Below, piece by piece: positions 5,531 to 21,342 of a DNA stretch of 21,342 bases (position 1 is its first letter; every line of letters begins with the position of its first letter). This DNA comes from Deltaproteobacteria bacterium (GTDB taxonomy: Bacteria; Desulfobacterota; GWC2-55-46; S146-70; JAUXIU01). The stretch covers positions 1-21,342 of the forward strand of contig JAUXIU010000002.1 in assembly GCA_030620895.1 (NCBI GenBank). Reading direction: 5' to 3'. The position numbers and the translations under genes are program-made. The notes below the pieces were generated by a model, which was given only the letters and a program-made list of their open reading frames with translations, had not been told where the DNA came from and ran no database searches.

Positions 5531-5552
5531 ATATCGTTAGAACAAATGATTA

Positions 5553-5579
5553 GTTTTTAGGGGTTTTTGCACTGGAAAC
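5553..5579. repeat. R1 hairpin repeat, diverged copy (reverse orientation)
   Basis: GTTTTTAG (5553-5560), an 11-nt loop GGGTTTTTGCA, then CTGGAAAC (5572-5579). Compared with the other R1 copies, the two C positions of one arm are T. In a plus-strand RNA these would still pair as U-G. The flanking AATGATTA at 5545-5552 is the reverse complement of the TAATCATT that follows R1 at 14211 and 16974. The copy lies in the gcvT-gcvH spacer. Confidence 0.75.
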
Positions 5580-5628
5580 AATGTTTGTTCAGAGAACAGA
5601 TCGAGAATAAAGAAGCAAGGAGTGGGTC

Positions 5629-6015
5629 ATGGATTTCCCAGAAGACCTAAAGTACACAAAGGAGCACGAGTGGATAAAGATTGAAGATACAATGGCTACA
5701 ATTGGTATAACCGATCATGCCCAGGACTCACTCGGTGATATCGTATATCTAGAATTACCACGGGAGGGTGCTAAGGTTATAAAGGATGAGCCATTCGGGG
5801 TTGTAGAATCGGTAAAGTCAGTTTCAGACCTTTGTTCTCCAGCAAGCGGAAGTGTTGTTGAGGTTAATGACGCCCTTGTCGACAGCCCGGAGGTAATCAA
5901 TGACGATCCATATGGAGAGGCTTGGATGATAAAGGTTGAGATTGGCAACCCTGGAGACTTAGACGACGTCCTCTCAGCTGAAGAGTATCAGAAGTATATA
6001 GAAGAAGAGAAGTAA
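5629..6015 (+). CDS. gcvH: Glycine cleavage system H protein
   Basis: 128 residues, typical for GcvH. It is the lipoyl carrier that shuttles the aminomethyl group from the P protein to the T protein and is then reoxidised by the L protein. The lipoylated lysine is Lys63 in the motif FGVVESVKSVSDLCSPASG. The N-terminal KYTKEHEWIK and the C-terminal GEAWMIKVE are also characteristic. The ATG at 5629 has a good AGGAG about 8 nt upstream. The 98-bp spacer from gcvT contains an R1 hairpin. This single H protein presumably serves the gcvPA/gcvPB proteins encoded directly downstream. Confidence 0.97.
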   Translation: MDFPEDLKYTKEHEWIKIEDTMATIGITDHAQDSLGDIVYLELPREGAKVIKDEPFGVVESVKSVSDLCSPASGSVVEVNDALVDSPEVINDDPYGEAWMIKVEIGNPGDLDDVLSAEEYQKYIEEEK

Positions 6016-6074
6016 ATTGAAAGAAAACAGATCGCCTCTCGACAACTAAGTATTCCTCTGCCACACCCCTTTAC

Positions 6075-7421
6075 ATGACATATATTCCACATACAGATAA
6101 AGATATAAAAGATATGCTTGCAGCAATAGGAGTTACTTCCCTTGACGAGCTGTTCGACCAGATACCTTACGCATTACGGCTTCAAAGGCCTCTTAATATC
6201 CCACCGGGACTTCCCGAACGTAATCTCGTAAATGAACTATGTCACCTTTCAAAAAAGAACACAACGGTTGATGAATATATATCATTTCTTGGAGCGGGTT
6301 CGTATAACCACTATATACCTAGCGTGGTTAAATATATTGTCGCCCGCTCTGAATTCAATACATCATATACACCTTATCAGCCCGAGGTGAGTCAGGGCAC
6401 ATTACAGGCAATCTTTGAATACCAGACACTGATATGCCAGCTGACAGGAATGGAAGTTAGTAATGCATCGATGTACGACGGTGCTTCTGCAACAGCCGAG
6501 GCAGTATTAATGGCAGGGAGGCTAAACGGCCATCAGAGAGTAATCCTTAGTTCAGCACTTCATCCTGAATACCGCGAAACCATAAATACATATATTTCAA
6601 ATCAAGACAAGACAGTTAAAGAAGTAACATACTGCACAGCAACAGGAAAGACCCTTCCAGAGGCTGTAGAGGCTCAAATTGGAAATGAGCCTTCGTGTCT
6701 TGTTGTGCAGCATCCTAATTTCTTTGGATCCCTTGAGGATATAGCGGCACTGAGAGACCTGATACATAATAGAGGCGGACTACTTATAGTCGTTATAACA
6801 GAACCGATATCTCTAGGTCTTCTTACACCACCTGGCTCGCTAGGCGCAGATATTGTGGTCGGTGAAGGACAATCATTAGGAAACAATATGGCTTTTGGCG
6901 GGCCATACCTTGGTTTTTTTGCAACCCGGGAGGAGTATATAAGACAGGTGCCGGGGAGGATTGTCGGACAAACAACCGACAGTAAAGGCAAACGTGGTTT
7001 TTGCCTGACCCTTGCAACTAGGGAACAGCACATAAGAAGAGAGAAGGCAACCTCGAATATATGCACCAATGAAGGGCTCTGTGCAATATCTGCGGCGGTG
7101 TTCCTTTCAGTGTATGGGAAGAAGGGGCTAATTGATCTGGCGAGATTAAATTTTTCAAAATCCCAGTATCTCAAAAATTCCATCTCTAAAGTAGCCGGCA
7201 CCAGAATAGCCTTCTCTTCTCCGACATTCAACGAGTTTGTAATAGAATCTGAAATAGAAGCTGATGTATTACTCAAGGCACTTCTAAAAAAGGGCATACT
7301 TGGAGGGATATCCCTTAAAAAGTTTTACCCTGAACTTTCCAGGCACTTACTTCTATGTGCAACAGAGATGAACTCCAGGGAAGAAATGGATACATTTGTA
7401 GAGGAATTTTCAAAATTATGA
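6075..7421 (+). CDS. gcvPA: Glycine dehydrogenase (decarboxylating) subunit 1
   Basis: 448 residues. This is the N-terminal half of the split P protein, which with GcvPB forms the PLP-dependent glycine decarboxylase. Hallmarks are MTYIPHTDKDIKDML at the start, the FLGAGSYNHYIPSVVKYI motif, YTPYQPEVSQGTLQAIFEYQT, and the ANMYDGA-like segment SNASMYDGASATAEA. The PLP lysine is on the partner subunit. The start at 6075 fits the family N-terminus, although the Shine-Dalgarno sequence is weak. The stop overlaps the ATG of gcvPB by 4 bp (ATGA), which implies translational coupling and fits 1:1 assembly. Confidence 0.96.
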   Translation: MTYIPHTDKDIKDMLAAIGVTSLDELFDQIPYALRLQRPLNIPPGLPERNLVNELCHLSKKNTTVDEYISFLGAGSYNHYIPSVVKYIVARSEFNTSYTPYQPEVSQGTLQAIFEYQTLICQLTGMEVSNASMYDGASATAEAVLMAGRLNGHQRVILSSALHPEYRETINTYISNQDKTVKEVTYCTATGKTLPEAVEAQIGNEPSCLVVQHPNFFGSLEDIAALRDLIHNRGGLLIVVITEPISLGLLTPPGSLGADIVVGEGQSLGNNMAFGGPYLGFFATREEYIRQVPGRIVGQTTDSKGKRGFCLTLATREQHIRREKATSNICTNEGLCAISAAVFLSVYGKKGLIDLARLNFSKSQYLKNSISKVAGTRIAFSSPTFNEFVIESEIEADVLLKALLKKGILGGISLKKFYPELSRHLLLCATEMNSREEMDTFVEEFSKL

Positions 7422-8917
7422 GCAATCCAGTTTCTACCACAAATCCATGCAATCTTTCCAAAGAAGAGAAACTTATCTTCGAGAAATCGTCACATGGCAG
7501 AACGGGAACACTTCCCCCAATAGCCGATATTGAAGAGACAAGGCCTGAAGATCTTATACCGCCTGCCATGTTACGTGAAGATATTGAAGGATTCCCTGAA
7601 TTATCTGAACTCGATACGGTAAGGCACTTTACCAGGCTATCTCAGTTAAATCTCGGTATCGATACAGCTTTCTATCCACTTGGTTCCTGCACGATGAAAT
7701 ACAACCCCAAGGTCAACGAGGATATCGCCTCTCTCGACGGCTTTGCTCGACTTCATCCCTATCAGCCAGATGAACTGAACCAGGGCGCCTTGCAGCTAAT
7801 TCATGAAATGGAGTGGTTGCTTGCCGAATTAAGTGGTATGGATGCTGTAACACTCCATCCCGCTGCCGGTGCCCATGGGGAATTAGCCGGGATGCTGATG
7901 ATCGCTGCATATTTCAGGGAGATGGGCAATCCAAGAAAGAAGATAATAATCCCAGACACAGCCCACGGTACAAACCCTGCAAGCTGTATGCTTGCCGGCT
8001 TCTCTGTTATACTGGTAAGATCAGATGACAACGGTGTAATAACGCCGGAAAGCATAAACGCTATAATGGACGAAGATACGGCAGCCTTGATGTTAACGAA
8101 TCCTAATACGCTTGGCCTTTTTGAAAAACATATTAAGGAGATATCTGATATCGTCCATAATAAAGGAGGACTAATTTATTGCGATGGTGCAAATTTAAAC
8201 GCAATTCTGGGAATATCAAGACCTGGAGACATGGGTGTAGATATAATTCAATTTAATCTCCATAAAACATTCTCAACACCCCATGGAGGCGGTGGTCCTG
8301 GAAGCGGGCCAGTTGGGGTCAAAAGTTTTCTCGAACCCTATCTTCCAAAGCCTAGGATTAAAAAGAAGGACAGAAGGTTTTCCCTGGATTATAACCACCC
8401 CAAATCCATTGGGCGGTTAAGGGCCTTCCATATGAACTTTGGAATAGTGGTAAGGGGCTATAGTTATATAAGGGCTATCGGTGGCGAAGGATTAAAAAGG
8501 ACAAGTGAGATGGCTGTTCTTAATGCAAATTATGTGAAGGAGGCATTAAAGGGTCATTACCATCTACCTTATGATCTGCCATGCATGCACGAGTGTGTGT
8601 TTTCCGATATTCTCCAATATGAATATAACGTAAATACGCTAGACATAGCCAAGAGGCTAATAGATTATGGTATTCATCCTCCAACCATATATTTCCCACT
8701 TGTCGTAAAAGGAGCACTTCTGGTGGAACCTACTGAAACTGAGAGCAAGGAGACCCTTGACAATTTTATAGATGCGATGAAAAAGATAGCTTTTGAATCA
8801 AAAAAAGACCCTGACACACTAAGAAGTTCACCTCATACAACAAGTATGGGCAGGCTGAATGAGGCAAAAGCAGCCAGGAACCCTGTACTCAGGTGGAAGA
8901 GGGAAACAGGGAAATGA
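7418..8917 (+). CDS. gcvPB: Glycine dehydrogenase (decarboxylating) subunit 2
   Basis: 499 residues from the ATG at 7418, which overlaps the gcvPA stop (ATGA). The frame is open further upstream to 7355, but that would run inside gcvPA and does not fit the family start. This is the PLP-binding half of the split P protein. The Schiff-base lysine is in FNLHKTFSTPHGGGGPGSGP. Other signatures are YPLGSCTMKYNPK, HPYQPDELNQGALQLIHEME, LHPAAGAHGELAG and IPDTAHGTNPASCMLAGF. It catalyses glycine decarboxylation with transfer of aminomethyl to lipoyl-GcvH. It ends 11 bp from the convergent TonB-like gene, with no obvious terminator between them. Confidence 0.97.
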   Translation: MSNPVSTTNPCNLSKEEKLIFEKSSHGRTGTLPPIADIEETRPEDLIPPAMLREDIEGFPELSELDTVRHFTRLSQLNLGIDTAFYPLGSCTMKYNPKVNEDIASLDGFARLHPYQPDELNQGALQLIHEMEWLLAELSGMDAVTLHPAAGAHGELAGMLMIAAYFREMGNPRKKIIIPDTAHGTNPASCMLAGFSVILVRSDDNGVITPESINAIMDEDTAALMLTNPNTLGLFEKHIKEISDIVHNKGGLIYCDGANLNAILGISRPGDMGVDIIQFNLHKTFSTPHGGGGPGSGPVGVKSFLEPYLPKPRIKKKDRRFSLDYNHPKSIGRLRAFHMNFGIVVRGYSYIRAIGGEGLKRTSEMAVLNANYVKEALKGHYHLPYDLPCMHECVFSDILQYEYNVNTLDIAKRLIDYGIHPPTIYFPLVVKGALLVEPTETESKETLDNFIDAMKKIAFESKKDPDTLRSSPHTTSMGRLNEAKAARNPVLRWKRETGK

Positions 8918-11527: not shown

Positions 11528-12391
11528 ATGCCTACCATCATAGACGGAAAGAGTCAGGCCAAAGACATAAAGATAGGTTTACATAGGGAAGTAGGCCCAC
11601 TAAAGGAAAATGGTGTAATACCGGGCCTTGCGGTTATACTTGTTGGAGATGATTCGGCCTCACAGGTATATGTAAAGGCAAAGGGGAAGGCATGTGAGGA
11701 GGTTGGAATATCATCCTTTCAGCATAGATTGGATGAAGATGTCACAGAGGATGAAGTGCTTAAGCTTATATCTGAATTAAACAATGATGAAAAAGTCCAC
11801 GGCATCCTTGTACAACTCCCTCTTCCTCCACACCTTAACGAAAGAACGTTAACCGAAGCTATAAACCCTGATAAAGATGTCGATGGCTTTCACCCTTATA
11901 ACATAGGAAGGCTTGTGCTAGGGGAACCTTACTTCCAGCCATGCACACCACTGGGTATTATGAGGCTTTTGGAATCAACAGGCATAGAGCTTTCAGGAAA
12001 AGAAGCAGTAGTCGTTGGAAGGAGCAATATTGTAGGAAAGCCTGTTGCATTAATGCTCCTTCACAGGAATGCAACAGTCACCATATGCCACTCCAAAACA
12101 AGGGAAATACAGGACAAGGTAGGTAGGGCAGATATAGTTATAGCAGCAGTAGGTAGGGCAAGAATGATACAAGGGGAGTGGATAAAGAAGGGTGCGATAG
12201 TTATAGATGTCGGTATAAACAGGAAAGCCGATGGCAAGTTGGTGGGCGATGTGGACTTCGAGGGCGCATCAAAGAAGGCATCTTATATAACACCGGTACC
12301 AGGGGGTGTCGGCCCGATGACTATTGCTATGCTCCTCTACAACACGGTACTTGCAGCTAAGAGACGGCAGTCAGGGTTGAAGGCTTCTTAA
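11528..12391 (+). CDS. folD: Bifunctional methylene-THF dehydrogenase / methenyl-THF cyclohydrolase
   Basis: 287 residues, full length. FolD interconverts 5,10-methylene-THF, methenyl-THF and 10-formyl-THF in the cytoplasm. Signatures in order: SQVYVKAKGKACEEVGI with the catalytic Tyr/Lys pair, ILVQLPLPPHL, NPDKDVDGFHPYNIGRL, PCTPLGIMRLL, the nucleotide-binding VVGRSNIVGKPVALML, and the C-terminal PVPGGVGPMTIAMLLYNT. The start at 11528 gives the normal N-terminus (PTIIDGKSQAKDIK). It is the first gene of a folD-metV-metF block, and together with the gcv genes it supports a methylene-THF hub. Confidence 0.97.
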   Translation: MPTIIDGKSQAKDIKIGLHREVGPLKENGVIPGLAVILVGDDSASQVYVKAKGKACEEVGISSFQHRLDEDVTEDEVLKLISELNNDEKVHGILVQLPLPPHLNERTLTEAINPDKDVDGFHPYNIGRLVLGEPYFQPCTPLGIMRLLESTGIELSGKEAVVVGRSNIVGKPVALMLLHRNATVTICHSKTREIQDKVGRADIVIAAVGRARMIQGEWIKKGAIVIDVGINRKADGKLVGDVDFEGASKKASYITPVPGGVGPMTIAMLLYNTVLAAKRRQSGLKAS

Positions 12392-12424
12392 AAATATTTC
12401 GAAAGCGGATGTCTTTGTAAAAAG

Positions 12425-12449
12425 TCAAGATACCCCGGACATCTTGACA
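12425..12449. repeat. Perfect 8-bp hairpin between folD and metV
   Basis: GTCAAGAT (12425-12432), a 9-nt loop, then ATCTTGAC (12442-12449). It is not followed by a T-run, so it does not look like an intrinsic terminator. The geometry resembles the R1 hairpins, but the sequence is unrelated. Confidence 0.4.
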
Positions 12450-12538
12450 GCGAGGAAGTTTCCATTACCTTAGCACGCCTCTTGACCCCGCCTACAAGGA
12501 AGTCTTCAGGATTGAATATGCAGAAGAAGGATAGATAG

Positions 12539-13204
12539 ATGATTATCACAAAAAAAAAGGAGCCTTCACTTATATTGGAATACCTTGATGGAAGAAAAAA
12601 AGTCTACCTTTTTGGTTGTAACTCCTGTGCCGAGCAATGTCAAACTGGAGGAAAAAGAGAGCTTGATGAGATGACCGTGATCCTCAGGGAGAATGGTAAG
12701 GAGATAACCGGTACATCCTTAATAGATGAGACCTGCTACAAGATGCTTGTTAAGAAAGAATTCAAGGCAAATGAAGCTATAATGTCGTCTGATGCTATAC
12801 TTGTACTTGCCTGTGGTGCAGGTGTAAAGACAGTTGCTGAAATTGCGGAAAACAGCACCCCTGTATTTCCAGCCCTTGACTCTCTCTTTCTCGCAAGCGT
12901 GGAGAGGTATGGAAGGTTTTTTGAAGGCTGCTCACTCTGCGGGGAGTGCATCCTTGGGAGCACTGCAGGGATATGTCCCCATACGTTATGTCCGAAGGGA
13001 CTGCTGAACGGTCCATGTGGCGGTGTGATAAACGGCAGGTGCGAAGTGAATATAGAAAACAACTGCGTCTGGGTTGATATATTCAGAAGGCTCAAGGCCC
13101 AGGACAGACTCAACGTACTTAAAAAGATACATCCCCCAAAAGACTATTCAAATGGGGTTAAACCCAGAAAGGTTATACTCGAGAGGAAGAAGACAAGGGC
13201 ATAA
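12539..13204 (+). CDS. metV: MetV-type methylene-THF reductase partner (Fe-S/zinc protein)
   Basis: 221 residues. This belongs to the methylene-tetrahydrofolate reductase C-terminal catalytic-domain family, known as MetV when paired with MetF in acetogens and other anaerobes. Cysteines dominate: Cys27, Cys30 and Cys34 in FGCNSCAEQC, a Cys in VLACGAG, and a dense C-terminal group (EGCSLCGEC, GICPHTLCPKG, NGPCGGVINGRCEV) suited to binding Fe-S clusters or zinc. MetV forms a complex with MetF and is thought to let it accept electrons without free NADH. The start ATG at 12539 has AGAAGGA 8 nt upstream. It sits between folD and metF, on the same strand. Confidence 0.88.
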   Translation: MIITKKKEPSLILEYLDGRKKVYLFGCNSCAEQCQTGGKRELDEMTVILRENGKEITGTSLIDETCYKMLVKKEFKANEAIMSSDAILVLACGAGVKTVAEIAENSTPVFPALDSLFLASVERYGRFFEGCSLCGECILGSTAGICPHTLCPKGLLNGPCGGVINGRCEVNIENNCVWVDIFRRLKAQDRLNVLKKIHPPKDYSNGVKPRKVILERKKTRA

Positions 13205-13209
13205 AATAT

Positions 13210-13236
13210 GTTTCCAGTGCAAAAACCCCTGGAAAC
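13210..13236. repeat. R1 hairpin repeat
   Basis: GTTTCCAG, an 11-nt loop TGCAAAAACCC, then CTGGAAAC: a perfect 8-bp stem. It is identical to the copies at 14184 and 16947. It starts 6 nt after the metV stop. Confidence 0.85.
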
Positions 13237-13276
13237 TGATTTTAATCGGTGTAATCTTATTGTAATCTGAGTAATC

Positions 13277-13308
13277 ATTGATTTTACGGTTTTTGCAGTA
13301 AAATCAAT
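13277..13308. repeat. R2 hairpin repeat directly upstream of metF
   Basis: ATTGATTTTAC, a 10-nt loop GGTTTTTGCA, then GTAAAATCAAT: a perfect 11-bp stem. The loop is the exact reverse complement of ten bases of the R1 loop (TGCAAAAACC) 40 bp upstream. It ends 8 nt before the metF ATG, where a Shine-Dalgarno sequence would normally lie. Confidence 0.8.
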
Positions 13309-13316
13309 CAAAAACA

Positions 13317-14213
13317 ATGAATTCTCTCAAACAATCGCTTATTTCTAAAAGATTTACAATCACAGCAGAGATATGCCCGCCGAAAGGGACTGATACTTCG
13401 GGTTTTCTTGATAAAGCCAGGCTTCTTAAAGGGCAGATAGATGCGGCAAATGTAACTGACAACCAGAGGGCTGTGATGAGACTATCATCACTTGCCTGTT
13501 CTTTACTACTTTTGAGGGAGGGGATAGACCCTGTTTTTCAGATGACATGTAGGGATAGAAACCGTCTGGCTATACAGTCAGATATCATGGGTGCCTGGGT
13601 ATTGGGAATAAGGAATATCCTTGCACTTACAGGTGATCATGTCTCATTTGGCGACCATAGAAATGCAAAGGCGGTATTTGACCTCGATTCTGTCCAGCTT
13701 GTACAAACAATAAGTAAACTCAATGAGGGAAACAATATCAATGATAAACCCCTGAAAGGTGGAACGGATCTTTTTATCGGTGCGGTTGTTGCACCTGGGG
13801 CAGAGCCATGGGAACCCGAGATGATAAAATTTGAGAAGAAGATTGAAGCCGGTGCCAGATTCTTCCAGACACAGGCCATATATGATATGGAGAGGTTTCA
13901 GAAGTTTTTCGAATACGCAAGACAGTTCGATATAAAGATCCTTGGTGGCATCCTTCTCCTGAAGTCCGCAAAGATGGCTAATTTTTTGAACACTAATGTG
14001 CCCGGGGTAGATGTACCGAAAAGGCTAATAGAAGAGCTGGAATCTTCAAAAGATCAACTCGAGAAAGGGATTGAGATCGCAGCCAGACAGCTAAAGGAAC
14101 TAAATAGCTTCTGCCACGGCGCCCACATAATGGCCATCGGACAGGAGGAAAGTGTTGTAAGGATAATAGAAAAGGCAAAATCTGTTTCCAGTGCAAAAAC
14201 CCCTGGAAACTAA
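13317..14213 (+). CDS. metF: Methylenetetrahydrofolate reductase
   Basis: 298 residues, a typical bacterial MetF TIM barrel. It reduces 5,10-methylene-THF to 5-methyl-THF with a flavin. Features are the N-terminal FTITAEICPPKGTD with the catalytic Glu18, ANVTDNQRAVMRLSS, FQMTCRDRNRLAIQSD, LALTGDH, FIGAVVAPGAEPWEPE, and GARFFQTQAIYDME. Following metV, it forms the MetFV type of reductase. The ATG at 13317 gives the family N-terminus but has no Shine-Dalgarno sequence, because an R2 hairpin occupies that position. The last nine codons (VSSAKTPGN) are exactly an R1 repeat, so the repeat supplies the C-terminus. The stop is 10 bp from the convergent hydG stop. Confidence 0.95.
   Translation: MNSLKQSLISKRFTITAEICPPKGTDTSGFLDKARLLKGQIDAANVTDNQRAVMRLSSLACSLLLLREGIDPVFQMTCRDRNRLAIQSDIMGAWVLGIRNILALTGDHVSFGDHRNAKAVFDLDSVQLVQTISKLNEGNNINDKPLKGGTDLFIGAVVAPGAEPWEPEMIKFEKKIEAGARFFQTQAIYDMERFQKFFEYARQFDIKILGGILLLKSAKMANFLNTNVPGVDVPKRLIEELESSKDQLEKGIEIAARQLKELNSFCHGAHIMAIGQEESVVRIIEKAKSVSSAKTPGN
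14184..14210. repeat. R1 hairpin repeat inside the metF 3' end
   Basis: It is identical in sequence to the 13210 copy. Here the 27 bp are nine in-frame codons of metF, followed at once by TAA and then TCATT, matching the TAATCATT that flanks R1 elsewhere. Confidence 0.85.
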
Positions 14214-14223
14214 TCATTACATG

Positions 14224-15615
14224 TTAGAAGTACATATCTCTACCCCCCTCTTCCACCTCTTTCAGCTTCTTTTTAGTTGCTGACCGGATTTTCTGATCCT
14301 TTATCGATGCCAATTGCTCTCGAATTATGGCTTCACCTGCCTTCTGTAAATTATCTGCACCAAAGTCAAGCAGGTATTCCTTGAAGGTCAAGAGTGAATT
14401 TGGGAGGCAGAATCTCTGGATCTGTCCCGGTTTTGCATAATCCATAAACTCCCTACCCGTCCTACCTACCCTGTAACATGCCGTGCAGAAGCTTGGGGTA
14501 AAACCGTGTCTGGAGATGTCATTTATAACTTCGGATGTTGTCCTCTTGTCTCCTAACAAAAATTGACCACTCGAATTGCCAGAATTATCCTTTCTACTGT
14601 AACCACCGGGGTATGTCTTTGAATTTGCACTTATCTGAGATATACCAATGTTTAAAAGCTCGTCTCTGAATATGGCATCCTCTCTTGTGCTGAGGATCAT
14701 CCCAGTATATGGAACAGCCAACCTCAATATAGCCACAAGTTTTTTAAAAGACTCATCGGAGACCTTATAAGGAGGGTGTTTTGAGATAGGGGAGTTTGAG
14801 GCAGGCTCAATCCTCGGTACTGAGATAGTATGCGGGCCTACGCCGAATTCACCTTCAAGATGACGTACATGGCACAGAAGGGCAAGGGTCTCAAATCTAT
14901 AGTCATAGAGACCGAAGAGTACACCCATCCCTACATCGTCTATGCCTGCCTCTTGTGCACAGTCCAACGCAAATAATCTGGTGATATAATCGCTTTTTGG
15001 CCCTGCAGGATGAAACCTCCTGTATGTGGGTTGATGGTATGTCTCCTGAAATAGCTGATATGTACCTATGCCGGTTGATTTTAGTCTCTGAAATCCCTTT
15101 ACCGACATTGGTGCTACATTGATATTGACCCTCTTTATCCCACCAACCTCAGTCCTCGTACCGTAAATTACCTCGATTGCCCTTTCTATATAATCTATTC
15201 CACACCGAGCGGGGTCCTCCCCCGCGACAAGAAGCAACCTCTTATGTCCATCTCTTATCAATACCTCCGTCTCCAGCGCTACCTCCTCATATGTAAGGAC
15301 ATTCCTCTCCGCTACTCGATTCTCCCTTCTAAAACCACAGTAGAGGCAACTGTTTATACAGGTACTTGAGAGGTAAAGTGGTGCAAACAAGACAAGCCGC
15401 TTCCCATATACAGACTCTTTTACAGACCCTGCAGCACAATATATCTCATTAACCTTCTCCTTATCCGTGCACTGGAGGAGGGCTGCAGCCTCCTCTAGCT
15501 CAAGGCCCTTGAGGGATATGCCTTTCTGTATAATAGAATTTATATCCCTGAGAGGCACATCCCTTGTTCGTTTAAGTAGAGTGTTAATCTTCTCTACAGG
15601 GATAAAGCTATCCAT
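14224..15615 (-). CDS. hydG: HydG-family radical SAM tyrosine lyase (CO/CN-forming)
   Basis: 463 residues from the ATG at 15615, preceded by GGAGGT 4 nt upstream. This overlaps the upstream hydE stop by 8 bp, so translation is probably coupled. In its family HydG cleaves tyrosine to CO and cyanide and builds Fe(CO)(CN) units on an auxiliary cluster for the [FeFe]-hydrogenase H-cluster. Seen here: radical SAM CX3CX2C (Cys86, Cys90, Cys93, in STCINSCLYCGFRREN), the ETYHQPTY and GPKSDY motifs, GIDDVGMGVLFGLYD, GPHTISVPRIEPA with the His expected to bind the labile iron, and the C-terminal CX2CX22C (Cys377, Cys380, Cys403). The last motif separates HydG from ThiH. Neither hydF nor an [FeFe]-hydrogenase gene is in the window. 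Confidence 0.93.
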   Translation of the reverse strand: MDSFIPVEKINTLLKRTRDVPLRDINSIIQKGISLKGLELEEAAALLQCTDKEKVNEIYCAAGSVKESVYGKRLVLFAPLYLSSTCINSCLYCGFRRENRVAERNVLTYEEVALETEVLIRDGHKRLLLVAGEDPARCGIDYIERAIEVIYGTRTEVGGIKRVNINVAPMSVKGFQRLKSTGIGTYQLFQETYHQPTYRRFHPAGPKSDYITRLFALDCAQEAGIDDVGMGVLFGLYDYRFETLALLCHVRHLEGEFGVGPHTISVPRIEPASNSPISKHPPYKVSDESFKKLVAILRLAVPYTGMILSTREDAIFRDELLNIGISQISANSKTYPGGYSRKDNSGNSSGQFLLGDKRTTSEVINDISRHGFTPSFCTACYRVGRTGREFMDYAKPGQIQRFCLPNSLLTFKEYLLDFGADNLQKAGEAIIREQLASIKDQKIRSATKKKLKEVEEGGRDMYF

Positions 15616-16921
15616 GTGGACCTCCAATGCCGATATCCGTTGGTGCCCTTCCAACGGAATATAGAAGTTCCAGAGTGTCTCTTATCTCACTTTTTACATC
15701 ATCTGTTTCTGATCCCTTGCCCGGATATATTGAATAGTGTTTACGATACTTCCGTGGTGTAAGATTTATCATCATGGAGTTTCCTCCTGCCATGAGCCCC
15801 TTTTTTATGCCTTCCTTCCCAAAGAGCCTCTCAACAGCAGATGTTACAAGTATACTTCCATTTGGATTCAAAATCCTTGCAACTGCTATAACCTTGAGGA
15901 TAGTATCAATATCAACCTGCGGTGTGTCTCCAAGGGGGGTTTCAGGGTGAGGCACAAGCGGACCAAATGAGTACATCTCCGTATCTAATAAACTGGCGAG
16001 CATGATATCATTCAGAAGGTCTTCTTCTCTCTGGCCCGGGAGACCAACAATAGAACCGGTAGCTATAATATAACCTATATCTTTTAAATTCTTAAGCAAT
16101 TGAACCCTCTTTTCATAGTGGATGGTTGAATGAAATTCAGCGTATAGATTTGAATTTGAAGTCTCGAACCTCATAAGGACGCCCCTGGCGCCGGCGTTAT
16201 ATAAAACCTTGTAGGACTCAATATCCCTTTCACCGATACTCAGGATAATAAGCACACCATGCCTTTTCCTTATTCTCCGGATGATATCTACAAGCCTTTC
16301 CGTGGTATAGTAACTGTCTTCCCCGGATTGGAGTACCAGCGCCTTAAAACCAAGTTTATCAACAGCCTTACATGCGGCTTCAACTATCTCATCAACTCCC
16401 ATCCTGTATCTTTTTACATCCGTATTTTCTTTCCTTAACCCACAGTATGCGCAGTCATTCTTGCAGATATTGGAGAACTCTATGATCCCGTGGACACAGC
16501 ATGAATTCTTGTGTTTCCTATGCCGAATAAGATTTGCTGTCTTGCAGATCAGTTCGAGATTCTCTCTGTCACTGCATTTTAATATTGCAATCAGCTCGTC
16601 CCTTGACAAGGGTGTACCCTCTTCCGCCTTCTTTAAGATATTCGCAATCTCTGTACCTGTCATTCCAGATTGCAAACCCTCTTCAGAAAGTCTCCTGTCC
16701 CTCTCTCTTAACCTGAAGAATGTCTCCCGCCACCCATCGAGTATACAGACAGCATCCTCTTCCGGGATTATCTGGACAATAAGGCCGCCCTGGGCAAAGA
16801 CATAGTCCCCAACCCTTACATCCTCCATGTCAGAATAGGCCTCCTTCTTCTCACCGAAATAGTCTATTACGGCTATATCATCATTTATATCAACCACCTT
16901 ACCTGGAATGGCGTAACACAT
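15608..16921 (-). CDS. HypC-HydE fusion: HypC chaperone domain plus HydE-family radical SAM maturase
   Basis: 437 residues. Residues 1-~60 are a HypC/HupF domain: MCYAIPGKVV at the start with the conserved Cys2, then IAVIDYFGEKKEA, VRVGDYVFAQGGLIVQ and PEEDA. HypC carries the Fe(CN)2CO unit in [NiFe]-hydrogenase assembly. The His usual in the VHxGxA segment is Gln44 here. Residues ~90-437 are HydE: GIIEFSNICKNDCAYCGLRKEN with the radical SAM CX3CX2C (Cys153, Cys157, Cys160), VLQSGEDSYYTTE, GARGVLMRFETSN, TGSIVGLPGQREEDL, and GNSMMINLTPRKYRKHYSIYPGK. HydE acts on the HydG product in H-cluster assembly. Both domains are in one uninterrupted frame and the ATG gives the exact HypC N-terminus, so a frameshift artefact is unlikely. 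The gene is followed at once by hydG. Confidence 0.92.
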   Translation of the reverse strand: MCYAIPGKVVDINDDIAVIDYFGEKKEAYSDMEDVRVGDYVFAQGGLIVQIIPEEDAVCILDGWRETFFRLRERDRRLSEEGLQSGMTGTEIANILKKAEEGTPLSRDELIAILKCSDRENLELICKTANLIRHRKHKNSCCVHGIIEFSNICKNDCAYCGLRKENTDVKRYRMGVDEIVEAACKAVDKLGFKALVLQSGEDSYYTTERLVDIIRRIRKRHGVLIILSIGERDIESYKVLYNAGARGVLMRFETSNSNLYAEFHSTIHYEKRVQLLKNLKDIGYIIATGSIVGLPGQREEDLLNDIMLASLLDTEMYSFGPLVPHPETPLGDTPQVDIDTILKVIAVARILNPNGSILVTSAVERLFGKEGIKKGLMAGGNSMMINLTPRKYRKHYSIYPGKGSETDDVKSEIRDTLELLYSVGRAPTDIGIGGPHG

Positions 16922-16946
16922 TTAACTATTACCCTTCATCAAATAT

Positions 16947-16973
16947 GTTTCCAGTGCAAAAACCCCTGGAAAC
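16947..16973. repeat. R1 hairpin repeat upstream of the hypC-hydE gene
   Basis: Perfect GTTTCCAG/CTGGAAAC stem and the loop TGCAAAAACCC, identical to the 13210 and 14184 copies. It is followed by TAATCAT and then directly by an R2 hairpin. It starts 26 bp upstream of the hypC-hydE ATG. Confidence 0.85.
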
Positions 16974-16979
16974 TAATCA

Positions 16980-17009
16980 TTGATTTTACGCTTTTTGCAG
17001 TAAAATCAA
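16980..17009. repeat. R2 hairpin repeat
   Basis: TTGATTTTAC, a 10-nt loop GCTTTTTGCA, then GTAAAATCAA: a 10-bp perfect stem. It differs from the R2 at 13277 by one loop base. It lies 6 bp from the R1 copy at 16947-16973, and the two loops are complementary at 9 of 10 positions. Confidence 0.8.
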
Positions 17010-17069
17010 ATAAGAACAGCCACGATTGCTGTAACTGCTTACCCTTTGCAAGAAAAGTCTGTACTGCGA

Positions 17070-17525
17070 CTAGCTATAGAAACATTGAATAAGCTGGAGG
17101 CGTGTATTAAGGACCCTCTCTGATGTCATCTTTGCCACCCTTCTCATAATGAGGAAACCCATGCGGTAGTCCTTCTCTATAAGTGCCATAAGCTTTTTTC
17201 CGTCTATAGAGAAAACAGAAGAATCCTTTACACATCTAGCGGATGCAGTGAATTTGAAAGGTTCTACAAGGGCAGACCAGCCAAAGGAATCAGCAAAGTG
17301 TGACACGGTTAATACGCTTATATACTTTCCACCTGTTACTTTTATATCTATCGATATCATCCCTTTTTTAAGTACATAGAGGTGTTCTGCAAGAGAATCT
17401 TCGACAAATACAAAATCTCCCTTTTTGTAGCTTTCCTCACAACAGAGATCCTGTAAAGACCTCAACTCATCCTCTGTAAAGTCCTTGAAGAATGCGATTT
17501 TCTTCAGATCATCGTATTCAATCAT
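17070..17525 (-). CDS. Cyclic nucleotide-binding-fold protein without a DNA-binding domain
   Basis: 151 residues from the ATG at 17525, which has GGAGGG 6 nt upstream. A start at 17546 is possible but has a poorer site. The whole protein is one CNMP-binding beta-roll (about residues 5-120: FFKDFTEDELRSL, KKGDFVFVEDSLAEHLYVLKKGMISI, FADSFGWSALVEPFKFTASARC) with a short helical tail. There is no helix-turn-helix. In the phosphate-binding cassette, the Glu of FGExAL is replaced by Trp and the usual Arg is absent, so classical cAMP binding is doubtful. Stand-alone domains of this type occur beside soluble group 3 hydrogenase genes, which suggests a sensor or structural role for the hydrogenase. 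That role is an inference. Confidence 0.8.
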   Translation of the reverse strand: MIEYDDLKKIAFFKDFTEDELRSLQDLCCEESYKKGDFVFVEDSLAEHLYVLKKGMISIDIKVTGGKYISVLTVSHFADSFGWSALVEPFKFTASARCVKDSSVFSIDGKKLMALIEKDYRMGFLIMRRVAKMTSERVLNTRLQLIQCFYS

Positions 17526-17556
17526 ATAACCCTCCTTCTGTATCAATGACAGGAAT

Positions 17557-17642
17557 TAGCTTTTTAGCTTCTTAGCTTTTTAGGGAAAAACAGGGAGTGG
17601 TTTCCAACCTAAGAAGCTAATAAGCTACAACCTAAAAAGCTA
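17557..17642. repeat. Palindromic element with short-unit arms (copy 3)
   Basis: The ends TAGCTTTTTAG (17557-17567) and CTAAAAAGCTA (17632-17642) are perfect inverted repeats. Inside the arms, TTAGCTT-type units recur with a 7-9 bp period, and the right arm is a variant of the left. It lies in the 228-bp spacer between the protease gene and the cNMP-fold gene. Confidence 0.55.
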
Positions 17643-17707
17643 TCTGGCCTCTTAACCTTTACCTTTTTCAAATGACCATTAACAGTCTTCATTCCTCAAT
17701 TTAAAAA

Positions 17708-17743
17708 CTCGCAACCCGCAACCCGCAACTCGTAACCCGTAAC
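17708..17743. repeat. 7-bp tandem repeat array
   Basis: Five 7-bp units of the form C-Y-C-G-Y-A-A: CTCGCAA, CCCGCAA, CCCGCAA, CTCGTAA, CCCGTAA. The array shares 16 consecutive bases with the right arm of the palindromic element at 2376-2450. It may be half of such an element. No left arm is evident. Confidence 0.6.
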
Positions 17744-17753
17744 AAGATTTCGG

Positions 17754-18236
17754 CTACGTTTGTGTATGATCTGTGATCATCTTCTTTATAAATCTTACCG
17801 CTTCCGGTATAAATCTCTTACACTCAGCTGATAATTCCATGGTGGGCGAGATATTTTTCGCAGAGACACCCAAAATAGATATTGGAGGTGTGTTCATTTC
17901 CAACCTCTTCATGAGTACAAGGCAAGAGCCCAGTTCCATATCGTGCATCGAATACACAGCTCCTTCACTCTCTTCATTAAGATCATCTGGGGAAAAGAGC
18001 CTCATACCGGAAAAAGACCCCTGCTTATCTCTTATGGCATCGATTATAATTACCCTCTGATAGTCAGATAGCATCTCTAAAAGGCCCAGGCCGGCCGTGC
18101 CGCCGTCAATAATATCGACAAAATCTGGAAAATTGATTCTCCTTAGTTCATTTACTATGTGAATGCCAACACCATCATCCCCCATCAGGAGATTACCCAG
18201 TCCAAGTATAAGAACCTTTTTTTCATTACTCGACAA
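17754..18236 (-). CDS. [NiFe]-hydrogenase maturation protease (HyaD/HycI family)
   Basis: 160 residues. The family is a nickel-dependent endopeptidase that removes the C-terminal tail of the large subunit after Ni insertion. Signatures: VLILGLGNLLMGDDGVGIHIV with the metal-binding Asp, IIDGGTAGLGLLEML, VIIIDAI with a second Asp, and a His in SMHDMELG. The start is a TTG at 18236. A strong GAGGTGAAG precedes it, and the start overlaps the large-subunit stop by 11 bp, so the pair is translationally coupled. The natural substrate is the large subunit encoded directly upstream, whose predicted tail is FLEVKFVE. Confidence 0.92.
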   Translation of the reverse strand: MSSNEKKVLILGLGNLLMGDDGVGIHIVNELRRINFPDFVDIIDGGTAGLGLLEMLSDYQRVIIIDAIRDKQGSFSGMRLFSPDDLNEESEGAVYSMHDMELGSCLVLMKRLEMNTPPISILGVSAKNISPTMELSAECKRFIPEAVRFIKKMITDHTQT

Positions 18237-19512
18237 ACTTCACCTCAAGGAAATGCGTGGAACACGATATACACGGGTCATAGGCCCTTACCAGCATCTC
18301 CAACCTCTGCTCAATCTCGTTCTTCGGAAGTTCAATAATAGTGGGTACCATTGATCGGATATCCTCTTCGATATTTAAAAGGTTCTGGGCCGTGGGAATT
18401 ATACAATTTACACCCTGAATTACCCCTTTTTCATCTATATCGTATTCATGATAGAGTGTACCTCTCGGCGCTTCAACCGCCCCCACACCATTTCCAGCTT
18501 TTACCTTTATCTGAGATTTCTCACCTCTGAGACTGCGGGAGGAAAGCAGGTCCAGGAGCTTTAAAGAATCGTGTATGCAATGGATAGATTCCACCACCTG
18601 AGCTATATTGTTCATGAATGGATTCGTTGATGGCGGTTCAAGACCAAGTCTCCGTGCCGCCTCTTTTGCCTCATCACATAAATATTCGTAATTATTATTC
18701 ACCCTCGCAAGCGCACCCACCATAATTGATTCATCGCCTGATCTGGCATGTTTTGCTGTAGAATATTCTATAACTTCTTCGGTAATCAATTCTTTATACC
18801 TTGCAGGTTCAATAGGAGGGATACCTTTCTTGTATAATCTTCCGTCATAGAGGGCATATTCATCTTTACTCCTCAAAGATATATATCTGGTTGCCCTGTT
18901 AAATTCAGGCATTTTTATGCCCTCAAAAAACCTTATAGTCTCATCCATATCAGGTGCAGTGCTTTCCAGCAAACCTCGAACCTCGTCGAGATCCTTCTGG
19001 GTAGGCAATCTCTTAAAACCACCTATATCCATCCCTATAGGATGGACATGCCTGCCTACAAGCACCCTGCATACCTCATTGGCTGCCCTCTTCAACCTGA
19101 GGGCCCTTCTGACTATATCAGGGTTTGTATCAACCATCGGTATTATCGATCCAACACCAAAGAAATCAGGTAAAGCCAGGAGATATACATGTAGTATATG
19201 GCTCTGTAAGACCTCTGCATTTATTAATATCTTTCTAAGCAGTACAGTCTCCTCGGAGGGAGCAATGTCCATAGCAGCCTCACATGCCTTGATGGAAGCT
19301 GTAGTATGACTTATGGCACAGATACCGCATATCCTTGATGTAATATGGGGGGCCTCATCAAATCTACGTCCCTTCAGCATAACCTCAAAGAAGCGCGGAG
19401 ACTCGACTATCTCGAGTCTCAATTCTTCTATCGTACCCTCTCTGATATTCAGGACCAGATTGCCGTGTCCTTCAATCCTCGTTATATGGTGTAAGTGGAT
19501 ATCGTGTGTCAT
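18226..19512 (-). CDS. [NiFe]-hydrogenase large (alpha) subunit, group 3b-like
   Basis: 428 residues. The Ni-Fe site ligands are present as RICGIC (Cys62, Cys65) and DPCISC (Cys414, Cys417). The C-terminal extension after His420 is only 8 residues, so processing would be short. The N-terminal ITRIEGHGNLVLNI, the segment IIPTAQNLLNIEEDIRSM and the C-terminus VRAYDPCISCSTH look most like cytoplasmic group 3b (sulfhydrogenase-type, NADP-linked) alpha subunits, as remembered from archaeal examples. The ATG overlaps the small-subunit stop (ATGA). The catalytic subunit oxidises or evolves H2. Group 3c is the main alternative. Confidence 0.93.
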   Translation of the reverse strand: MTHDIHLHHITRIEGHGNLVLNIREGTIEELRLEIVESPRFFEVMLKGRRFDEAPHITSRICGICAISHTTASIKACEAAMDIAPSEETVLLRKILINAEVLQSHILHVYLLALPDFFGVGSIIPMVDTNPDIVRRALRLKRAANEVCRVLVGRHVHPIGMDIGGFKRLPTQKDLDEVRGLLESTAPDMDETIRFFEGIKMPEFNRATRYISLRSKDEYALYDGRLYKKGIPPIEPARYKELITEEVIEYSTAKHARSGDESIMVGALARVNNNYEYLCDEAKEAARRLGLEPPSTNPFMNNIAQVVESIHCIHDSLKLLDLLSSRSLRGEKSQIKVKAGNGVGAVEAPRGTLYHEYDIDEKGVIQGVNCIIPTAQNLLNIEEDIRSMVPTIIELPKNEIEQRLEMLVRAYDPCISCSTHFLEVKFVE

Positions 19513-20246
19513 ATCTCTATATCTTCCAATCCATTAAAAAAACCTAACTTACTGCGGATCTCGTCCTTCGAAAACCCCTTCTCCAACAGGATATTGACCA
19601 AAGACTCGATATTCGGCTCTTCTACAAGCCCCCTGCACCCGGCACAGGAGTCTTTATAGGTGGGGCATATAGCGTCACAGCCTGCACGGGTTATAGAACC
19701 AAGACACCACTTGCCCTGTTCTACCAGACATATATTTCCCTTCGACCGACATTCAACACATACTGGATAATCGGGGAGTCTTGGCTCTATCTTAAGTATC
19801 AAAGACTGGACAAATCTTAAAAACTCACACTTGTCTATAGGACAGCCAGGCATGACATAATCAACCGGGACTACATCTTTTATCCTCCTTGTTGGAATAG
19901 TATCTGTAAAGAGGTCTTTCCTATTATAGACTGAAGGGAGCCATCCATCCATGGGATGTAAGTTCTTAAGGTTATTGACACCACCGAGATGAGCACAGGC
20001 GCCAAAAGCTATCAAAATCTCGGCCTTCTCTCTAATACTCTTTAACGTTTCTATCTCGGATTCCCTTGTTATCGACCCTTCTATAAAGGCAATCTGATAA
20101 TCCTCACCTTTTTCACTCATTGCCTCCCTGAAATTTACAAACTCAACCTGATCTATGAGTGAGGCAAACTCCTCTTCCAGATTAAATACCTGGAGCTGGC
20201 AACCCTCACAACTTGTAAAGCTGAATACCCCAATCTTCGGTTTCAT
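19509..20246 (-). CDS. [NiFe]-hydrogenase small (delta) subunit, group 3b-like
   Basis: 245 residues from the ATG at 20246, which gives the family start MKPKIGVFSFTSCEGC. The frame is open further up to 20345, but that would add a non-family hydrophobic stretch. Cluster-binding cysteines are visible: Cys13 and Cys16 in TSCEGCQ, FGACAHLGG, MPGCPIDKCEF, and a C-terminal block (PVCVECRSKGNICLV, GKWCLG, ITRAGCDAICPTY, SCAGCRG) that should bind further [4Fe-4S] clusters. There is no Tat signal, so it is cytoplasmic. The C-terminal DEIRSKLGFFNG is also as in group 3b delta subunits. The usual beta (Fe-S) and gamma (NAD(P)/FAD) subunit genes are not upstream in this window. A 135-bp palindromic element and then a TatD-radical SAM gene occupy that position. 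Confidence 0.93.
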   Translation of the reverse strand: MKPKIGVFSFTSCEGCQLQVFNLEEEFASLIDQVEFVNFREAMSEKGEDYQIAFIEGSITRESEIETLKSIREKAEILIAFGACAHLGGVNNLKNLHPMDGWLPSVYNRKDLFTDTIPTRRIKDVVPVDYVMPGCPIDKCEFLRFVQSLILKIEPRLPDYPVCVECRSKGNICLVEQGKWCLGSITRAGCDAICPTYKDSCAGCRGLVEEPNIESLVNILLEKGFSKDEIRSKLGFFNGLEDIEI

Positions 20247-20324
20247 ATTGAAATAATTTTCCCTCTTTATGTATTTCAGTTGAATGAAATATATGTATTG
20301 GAATGATGTCCATAAAGTGAACGT

Positions 20325-20459
20325 TACAAAATTTTTGGGGTACACTCTTGGCGAAGTTTGCGTCCCTGAAAGGGCGAATCTTAAGTGTCTGAGGCCGTAA
20401 GGCCGAGTTTTAAGATTCGAGCAAATAAGCCCTAGAATGGGTCAAAAATTCTGTAAGAG
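20325..20459. mobile_element. MITE-like nested palindromic element upstream of the hydrogenase genes
   Basis: A 135-bp segment flanked by direct AACGT (20320-20324 and 20460-20464). Near the ends, TTACAAAATTTTTG and the reverse complement of CAAAAATTCTGTAA match at 13 of 14 bases. Within it, CGAATCTTAA (20375-20384) and TTAAGATTCG (20410-20419) form a perfect 10-bp stem enclosing GGCC-GTAA-GGCC. The segments GGCGAAGTTTGC and GCAAATAAGCC also pair partly. It is non-coding. It lies about 80 bp upstream of the small-subunit start and could be a non-autonomous transposon or a structured RNA. Confidence 0.5.
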
Positions 20460-20493
20460 AACGTATGGATATTATTTCAATACTTAAACTATT

Positions 20494-21342
20494 TCACCCA
20501 ACCTCATTATACTCCCTAACCCTGAACGCCACACCGATCTCGTCTTCGGCCAATCTTTTACATGACTCAACGTCCAGGCCAGGGACAGCAACTACAGTTG
20601 CATTAACCTTCTTAATATATTTCTTCGCCTCCTTTAAAAACCACAGTATTGCAGGAAAGGCGTCATCTCCATAAGGTGTCTTTACAAGACCCTGGTACGA
20701 CTCTGAATCGGGGGCGTTTAAACTTACAGATATCTCATCGACAAACATAAGCTCTGGTAGAACATTCCTTTCATGAACGAGGTTTGCTAGGCCGTCGGTA
20801 TCTATCCTTATCCTGCACCCCATCTTCTTTAGGAATAGACCTGCCTTCTTTACAAGGTCAAGCCTTATGAGTGGTTCACCGAAACCACAGAATACCACCT
20901 CCTTGAAATTCTGAGGATCAAGGCCTACAGCCTTAATTATATCTTCGAAGGTCGGCTCATATCTAAGTCTTAAATAGTGCCCCTTTACAGAAAATGACCT
21001 GTGTTTAGCACAGAATGTACAGTAGTTTGTGCAACGGTTAGTGATATTTAGATAAAGTGAGTCCCTTATCTTATAGGCTATCTTTGATGGCCTTTCCGGT
21101 TTGCCGATGCCAAACAATTCCTTTGCGTTTAGCGTCGTTATCCTGGCTATATCCTCAAGGCTAAGGGCCTTTATCTCTGCTATCCTCTTCGCTGTCTCGA
21201 CCAAGAAAGCTGGTTCATTTCTCTTGCCTCTATAAGGCTCTGGCGAAAGGTAAGGGCAGTCTGTCTCCAGAAGTATCCTCTCAACTGGGACCTTTTCTAT
21301 AATCTCGTGGATATTTGTAGCCTTGTTAAAGGTTACAATGCC
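20494..21342 (-). CDS. TatD nuclease-radical SAM fusion protein (partial, N-terminus off the right edge)
   Basis: The frame is open from the window edge at 21342 to the stop at 20494, 282 residues. The first ~79 residues are the C-terminal end of a TatD-type metal-dependent hydrolase: VPVERILLETDCPYLSPEPYRGKRNEPAF with the metal-binding Asp in ETD, then ETAKRIAEIKALSLEDIARITTLNAKELF. The rest, from about residue 85, is a short radical SAM domain: LYLNITNRCTNYCTFCAKH with CX3CX2C (Cys104, Cys108, Cys111 of the visible part), VVFCGFGEPLIRLDLV, and RIRIDTDGLA. This is the TatD-associated radical SAM family, seen as a fusion here. The substrate is unknown. No break separates the two domains. Confidence 0.88.
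   Translation of the reverse strand, partial: GIVTFNKATNIHEIIEKVPVERILLETDCPYLSPEPYRGKRNEPAFLVETAKRIAEIKALSLEDIARITTLNAKELFGIGKPERPSKIAYKIRDSLYLNITNRCTNYCTFCAKHRSFSVKGHYLRLRYEPTFEDIIKAVGLDPQNFKEVVFCGFGEPLIRLDLVKKAGLFLKKMGCRIRIDTDGLANLVHERNVLPELMFVDEISVSLNAPDSESYQGLVKTPYGDDAFPAILWFLKEAKKYIKKVNATVVAVPGLDVESCKRLAEDEIGVAFRVREYNEVG

Follow-up and report, generated by a model that had tools for sequence, protein, structure and literature searches.

Gene arrangement around the HypC-HydE fusion

The window analysed here is a stretch of 21,342 nucleotides from a Deltaproteobacteria bacterium (contig JAUXIU010000002.1). It encodes a fused hydrogenase maturation protein, HypC-HydE, together with HydG and a [NiFe]-hydrogenase. 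The genes run on the minus strand in the order small subunit, large subunit, protease, cyclic nucleoside monophosphate (cNMP)-binding protein, HypC-HydE and HydG. The fusion occupies 15608-16921 (-) as one open reading frame (ORF) of 437 amino acids, and hydG is located at 14224-15615 (-), with 463 amino acids counted from an ATG at 15615. In the mechanical ORF list, hydG starts at a TTG at 15654, which is probably wrong. The ATG is preferred because GGAGG lies upstream of it and because it overlaps the stop of the fusion by 8 bases, and the two genes look translationally coupled. The group 3b-like large subunit (18226-19512 (-)) carries the cysteine pairs RICGIC and DPCISC and a C-terminal tail beyond its last His. 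The small subunit (19509-20345 (-), PF01058) is also group 3b-like, with sulfhydrogenase delta nearest and scores under those cut-offs; its natural start may lie downstream of the listed GTG. The protease at 17754-18236 (-) is of the HycI/HyaD hydrogenase maturation type (TIGR00072, 113.5 bits). It is separated from the fusion by 832 bp, and this gap contains the gene of the small cNMP-binding-domain protein (17070-17546 (-), PF00027). The first-pass annotation had described a single HypC-HydE frame, coupled to a HydG with intact cluster motifs and placed near a protease and both hydrogenase subunits on the same strand, and all of this was borne out.

Residues 1-61 of the fusion matched Pfam HupF_HypC (PF01455) with 51.4 bits against a cut-off of 28.5, followed by the Radical_SAM and BATS domains. 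Against NCBIfam, the protein scored 275.5 bits for HydE (TIGR03956, cut-off 254.6) and 44.3 bits for HypC (TIGR00074), just below the cut-off of 48. We mapped HypC to residues 1-75, a linker to about 76-90 and the radical S-adenosylmethionine (SAM) domain of HydE to about 91-431, in which C153, C157 and C160 form the SAM-cluster CX3CX2C. A chance joining of two ORFs was rejected, as HypC and radical SAM domains occurred together in 120/120 listed best homologues. The AlphaFold2 model of the fusion had a predicted local distance difference test (pLDDT) score of 89.3 and a predicted template modelling (pTM) score of 0.90. The HydE part of this predicted structure superposed on T. maritima HydE, the complex-B-bound structures included; the VIA-align superposition hardly covered the HypC part. 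HydG scored 518 bits with TIGR03955 (cut-off 312.15), and its nearest solved chain was 4wcx, titled HydG (545 bits). Read from the sequence, its CX3CX2C, its CX2CX22C and the GPHT stretch are intact.

GTDB species genomes were scanned with patterns of this fusion, here called the first type. A total of 196 loci were confirmed and the best 80 of them (L001-L080) were retained. According to titles and tree labels, the bacterial carriers belong to Nitrospirota, Omnitrophota, Margulisbacteria/WOR-1, Elusimicrobiota, Planctomycetota, Spirochaetota, Patescibacteria and Gammaproteobacteria, and several archaeal groups carry the fusion as well. Existing annotations name the fusion proteins HydE, radical SAM protein or biotin synthase, which may explain why the pattern was overlooked.

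HydG was encoded within 1 kb of the fusion in 47/80 loci. In one Nitrospirae locus (L002:10001-12832), HypC, HydE and HydG form a single open frame of 943 amino acids, an arrangement in keeping with a direct hand-over between the three parts. Among L001-L080, HydG frames were present in 49 loci, and 8 of these 49 lacked the CX2CX20-24C motif. These eight (L010, L027, L028, L041, L042, L049, L065 and L079) proved not to be cysteine-less: their three cysteines are spaced as CX5CX19C. The same spacing was seen in HydGs from HydF-bearing genomes (L100, L105, L106), and a passage of PMC9431212 mentions this arrangement. In a Woesearchaeota locus (L008:4008-5387), one TGA breaks the HydG frame. L058 has a short frame directly after hydG (12739-13011) whose match to HydF is confined to the C-terminal end (positions 321-392); it may be left over from an ancestral hydEGF operon. 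The idea that such a HydF tail is conserved was rejected, as blast found it only in L058 among the frames of L001-L080.

The residues that characterise the fusion were compared in the best 120 first-type homologues and the best 120 of a second type (see below), 240 listed proteins in all. HypC Cys2 was retained in 81/81 aligned fusions; in the Hyp system, according to passages of PMC11565642, this residue is the proposed carrier of Fe(CN)2CO to the apo-enzyme. The position aligned with His51 of E. coli HypC, a proposed iron ligand in a passage of PMC12134894, is Gln44 in the window fusion. It was Gln in all 118 readable first-type homologues listed and A, I, T, S, V, N or L in all 114 readable second-type ones; this tally left out 8/240 homologues without a readable HypC start. 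In P0180 of the second-type list, a His sits one position earlier than the canonical one.

Just ahead of the SAM-cluster loop, the fusion has a specific Cys and His, C142 and H144. This pair was found in all 240 listed proteins of the fused lineage, 239 of them by pattern and P0168 by visual inspection, but in 0/120 listed unfused HydEs, which are close relatives of one Omnitrophota query and have I/L/F/V/A and Arg instead. The 8 unfused HydEs of the searched genomes have R at the H144 position and no Cys, and T. maritima HydE aligns with H and R at the two positions. In the tree, one branch separated the fused HydEs from these 8 unfused ones with a value of 99 in the SH-like approximate likelihood ratio test (SH-aLRT); the tree was built by a quick method, with the root set on the unfused HydEs and L002 left out.

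Maturation genes in fusion-carrying genomes

Maturase genes were searched in 51 whole genomes. One was that of the window (G000, 81% complete), and the others belonged to 50/80 loci, the remaining 30 loci being left out. HypD was found in 0/51 genomes. HypE was above the cut-off in 0/51; weaker matches occurred in 40/51, the best with 119.5 bits, and were rejected as hidden HypE, as 8/8 best frames lacked the PRxC end. HypF was likewise above the cut-off in 0/51, with weaker partial matches in all 51 genomes and in all 14 control genomes. The spirochaete genomes G012 and G043 encode a HypF-like C-terminal half (125 bits, positions 378-738). These frames were rejected as hidden HypF, there being only two of them, of 532 and 550 amino acids. 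HypC was above the cut-off in 51/51 genomes, always within fused frames of 419-943 amino acids, and a free HypC above the cut-off was found in none of them. Two HypC matches fell below the cut-off, in an 83-amino-acid frame of G034 (25.6 bits) and a 46-amino-acid frame of G005. The former (Scalindua; L110, about 5364-5462 (-)) lies near an intact fusion, begins with MCYAIPG like it and is apparently a truncated copy of its HypC start.

A [NiFe]-hydrogenase large subunit was present in 49/51 genomes and HydG above the cut-off in 48/51. Both cysteine pairs of the large subunit were seen in 47 of these 49 genomes, a late check having found them in 14/15 further genomes. The two unconfirmed cases are G008, with a frame truncated by the end of the locus, and G037, whose first pair is off the search pattern. 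Among the large-subunit frames from the loci (some loci were fetched twice), 53/56 had both pairs, and the other three (L010, L070 and L077 at 20490) are truncated where their loci end. For the window's large subunit, the nearest solved chains are titled 'Sulfhydrogenase 1 subunit alpha', chains which we take to be those of P. furiosus. Its EAPRG and RAYDPCISC motifs are identical to those of sulfhydrogenase 1. Because they equal the motifs of the classical 3b enzyme, the sequence argues for a classical ligand set at the window's [NiFe] site. The nickel-related genes were found less regularly: HypA was above the cut-off in 34/51 genomes and HypB in 7/51; in 16 of the HypA genomes, the match reached no further than about position 70 of 112. 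Short HypA-like proteins of about 81-98 amino acids, at L023:4449-4694 and similar places in other loci, presumably stop short of the zinc-site region of HypA.

The partners of HydE and HydG in [FeFe] maturation were also searched. HydF was above the cut-off in 8/51 genomes, G000 not among them and G027 just below, and [FeFe]-hydrogenase (PF02906, HydA) was found in 9/51 and was absent from G000. One or the other occurred in 10/51 genomes; neither was above the cut-off in the remaining 41, G000 included, in line with the earlier expectation that such fusions reside in genomes without hydF and hydA. A tie of the fusion to hydF and hydA, which the first-pass annotation had named as the observation that would speak against a [NiFe] role, was not seen: in 8/10 HydF/HydA genomes, an unfused HydE frame of 334-385 amino acids exists besides the fusion. 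Such an extra frame was not listed in the other two, G011 and G045.

The contig of G044, titled curated_complete (1.67 Mb), carries the fusion together with HydG and a large subunit in which both cysteine pairs are present. It contains no HypD, and HypE, HypF, HydF and HydA were all without a match above the cut-off. Its large subunit sits in a membrane-complex gene run and has NuoD as its best NCBIfam match, below the cut-off, as expected for a group 4-type enzyme.

As a control, 148 genomes were sampled from the window's phylum. HypC was found in 106 and HypD in 100 of them. HypD accompanied free-standing HypC in 99/103 genomes (the exceptions were G055, G128, G143 and G153), and G119 had HypD without HypC. 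In contrast, HypD was found in 0/3 genomes with a HypC-HydE fusion (G000, G129, G146), and the difference within the 148-genome sample alone gave a Fisher p of 0.0002. In four control genomes, the Hyp searches scored above the cut-off.

The fusions of G129 and G146, which came from the phylum sample rather than from the fusion scan, are of the second type and start with MCLTIPAKV; that of G146 is cut by the contig end. G129 contains a run (L093:6566-10795) of second-type HypC-HydE, HydG, protease, HypA and HypB, which reads as a hyp operon with HypC, HypD, HypE and HypF replaced. The fusion's contig in G146 also encodes a large subunit with both cysteine pairs, on the opposite strand. Named sources of the second type among the matches listed were Kuenenia and Wunengus, which we take to be anammox bacteria, as well as Planctomycetes, Deltaproteobacteria and Patescibacteria.

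A candidate HypDEF-independent route and its alternatives

It had been proposed in the first-pass annotation that the HydG product is loaded through the fusion for [NiFe] assembly. Our gene survey supported this idea, the chemistry being a prediction from sequence, and went beyond it: HypD, HypE and HypF are missing too, which reaches further than the supply of CO. We consider it likely that this locus forms the core of a [NiFe] cofactor pathway independent of HypDEF, in which HydG and HypC-HydE would replace HypCDEF. With somewhat less assurance, we also favour the stricter version, that the two proteins wholly replace HypC, HypD, HypE and HypF and that tyrosine would be the source of CO and of both CN- ligands at the [NiFe] site. 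As HypD, HypE and HypF are all missing, CN- as well as CO is probably provided by HydG.

According to passages of PMC12752695, HydG makes [Fe(Cys)(CN)(CO)2]- from tyrosine during [FeFe] maturation and hands it straight to HydE, which reduces and dimerises this product for HydF. In the Hyp system, a passage of PMC11565642 describes Fe(CN)2CO as modelled between HypC Cys2 and HypD Cys41, with a proposed departure on HypC Cys2. For the fusion carriers, we infer the substrate, ligand exchange, metal site and delivery as follows. HydG, whose motifs are intact, would cleave tyrosine to CO and CN- and build a mononuclear Fe-CO-CN synthon, which would pass to the HydE domain of the fusion. There the iron would be kept mononuclear instead of being dimerised to the [2Fe] unit for HydF; a mononuclear synthon on the fused HydE is the simplest reading because HypD and HydF are gone and HypC is fused to HydE. 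Judging from conservation, the single iron may be held between HypC Cys2 and C142/H144 of the HydE barrel, and the latter pair may stand in for HypD Cys41 and HypC His51. Conversion of Fe(CO)2(CN) to Fe(CN)2CO would use a second CN- from another HydG turnover. The HypC domain would then deliver the iron unit via Cys2 to the apo-large subunit, nickel would be inserted, and the protease, where present, would trim the C-terminal tail.

Several observations weigh against this route. The 50 genomes besides G000 were chosen for carrying the first fusion type, and nearly all genomes are metagenome-assembled genomes (MAGs) of unstated completeness. The large subunit was not found in 2/51 genomes (G006, G021), nor HydG above the cut-off in 3/51 (G045, G046, G049). 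The expectation that the fusions always lie near [NiFe] genes held at the level of genomes, with a large subunit in 49/51, but 'always' was too strong: linkage is frequent without being universal, and the large subunit was within 5 kb of the fusion on the same strand in 35/80 loci. More than 3.5 kb of upstream sequence was available in 59/80 loci, and 29 of these 59 had a nearby large subunit; when whole loci were counted by cluster, 41/80 contained a large-subunit-like ORF. The known product of HydG is Fe(CO)2(CN), and to arrive at Fe(CN)2CO a ligand swap or a second CN- is required. Finally, HypA and HypB were not above the cut-off in G000 or its relatives G001-G004, and the proposed route does not account for nickel insertion in the 81%-complete G000.

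Other explanations were weighed against the proposed route. HydG might give CO only, with CN- coming from an unrecognised, non-homologous replacement of HypE/HypF and with HypC-HydE receiving both on another scaffold. HypE-like proteins of up to 119.5 bits in some carriers and the HypF-like C-terminal half in G012 and G043 (125 bits) would fit such a division of labour; however, 0/8 HypE-like frames end in PRxC, the HypF-like frames span only positions 378-738 in 2/51 genomes, and CN- is made by HydG itself. We regard this explanation as unlikely. An equally doubtful one is a non-classical site in the large subunit, made straight from the HydG synthon; it might combine Fe(CO)2(CN) with nickel, for instance, or lack nickel. 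The HydG product is known as Fe(CO)2(CN) from a passage of PMC12752695, HypA and HypB were not above the cut-off in G000-G004, and HypB was so in only 7/51 genomes. The large subunits themselves point the other way, with both cysteine pairs in 53/56 frames and the other three cut, and with EAPRG and RAYDPCISC equal to those of sulfhydrogenase 1, and HypA was above the cut-off in 34/51 genomes.

There is very little probability that the pair still builds an H-cluster-type di-iron precursor for an [FeFe]-hydrogenase, with the HypC domain incidental or regulatory. HydE and HydG are [FeFe] maturases by their matches to TIGR03956 and TIGR03955, and the window has glycine cleavage genes (4379-8917), whose H-protein is needed for the dithiomethylamine bridge according to a passage of PMC12752695. 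Yet HydF and HydA were not above the cut-off in 41/51 carriers, G000 among them, a separate unfused HydE is present in 8/10 HydF/HydA genomes, and HypC Cys2 is kept in 81/81 fusions. Least probable of all is that HypD, HypE and HypF are present but were missed through incomplete bins or divergence. Most genomes are indeed MAGs and G000 is 81% complete, but three genes and free HypC are jointly missing in 51/51 genomes, the curated_complete contig included; moreover, the same searches succeeded in four control genomes, and HypD was found in 100/148 genomes of the phylum.

Relation to known systems and further features of the loci

The system fails the defining features of both known maturation sets, HypD, HypE and HypF for Hyp and HydF and HydA for Hyd. 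With HypABCDEF it shares the HypC fold with Cys2, a tailed [NiFe] large subunit with its protease and, in some genomes, HypA and sometimes HypB. It differs in that HypD is absent, HypE and HypF are not above the cut-off, and HypC is fused to a radical SAM enzyme and has lost its His; the carbamoyl-phosphate route to CN- was not seen here. With HydEFG it shares the radical SAM domain of HydE and a HydG with both cluster motifs, whereas HydF and HydA are missing in 41/51 carriers, HydE is joined to HypC, and a Cys and a His precede the SAM-cluster loop where the 120 unfused HydEs have I/L/F/V/A and Arg. Like HypX in aerobic [NiFe] maturation, the proposed route would supply the CO ligand of the [NiFe] site; HypX acts alongside the Hyp set according to a passage of PMC12134894, whereas here a radical SAM tyrosine lyase is found and HypDEF are gone. 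As for the target, the window's large and small subunits are nearest to the group 3b sulfhydrogenase and the four cysteine ligands are kept, yet the 3b equivalog cut-offs were not reached. No diaphorase subunits were found among the window ORFs, whereas relatives such as L001 and L004 have them.

The component families are known; the combination and the route proposed from it are new as far as the searched literature goes. In the titles and abstract starts of open-licence PubMed Central literature (subscription papers and preprints outside the scope), neither a HypC-HydE fusion nor HydG in [NiFe] maturation was found. The consulted passages of PMC12134894, PMC3226654, PMC9431212, PMC6802093, PMC12130793, PMC11565642, PMC12752695 and PMC3105041 do not describe them either, and a term search of PMC6349859 for maturase names returned none. 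If the route is real, a second, radical-SAM-based [NiFe] maturation system would operate in much of the uncultured bacterial and archaeal diversity, anammox bacteria among it, and would be an unrecognised second way to make an ancient metal site. Tyrosine, through HydG, would be a definite and testable ligand source for the carriers, and two hydrogenase maturation chemistries now treated as separate would be joined. Such a route would also alter the prediction of hydrogen metabolism from uncultured genomes and could offer a compact tool for producing [NiFe] enzymes.

Mrp-antiporter-like membrane subunits are encoded in the fusion loci L025, L033, L041, L074 and L080, which suggests that the fusion also serves membrane-bound [NiFe] enzymes of the group 4 type. 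DPCxxCxxR endings, which we regard as group 4-like, were found in 13/17 large-subunit frames examined. A gene for a Rex-like redox regulator (PF06971 with CoA_binding, presumably Rex) shares the locus with the fusion at L029:11349-11981 and in 13 further loci.

In the window, a promoter and terminator scan of 14000-21342 gave the same counts as shuffled sequence (15 versus 15.0 and 7 versus 6.5), with no operon borders readable, and an Rfam gathering search of the window returned 0 matches. The plus strand carries glycine cleavage genes, folD and methylenetetrahydrofolate reductase (MTHFR)-type genes (PF12225, PF02219) at 4379-8917 and 11528-14213; the names of the glycine cleavage genes and folD come from sequence reading, without a family search. 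Relatives of the cNMP-binding protein were present in five loci (L001, L002, L004, L005 and L006).

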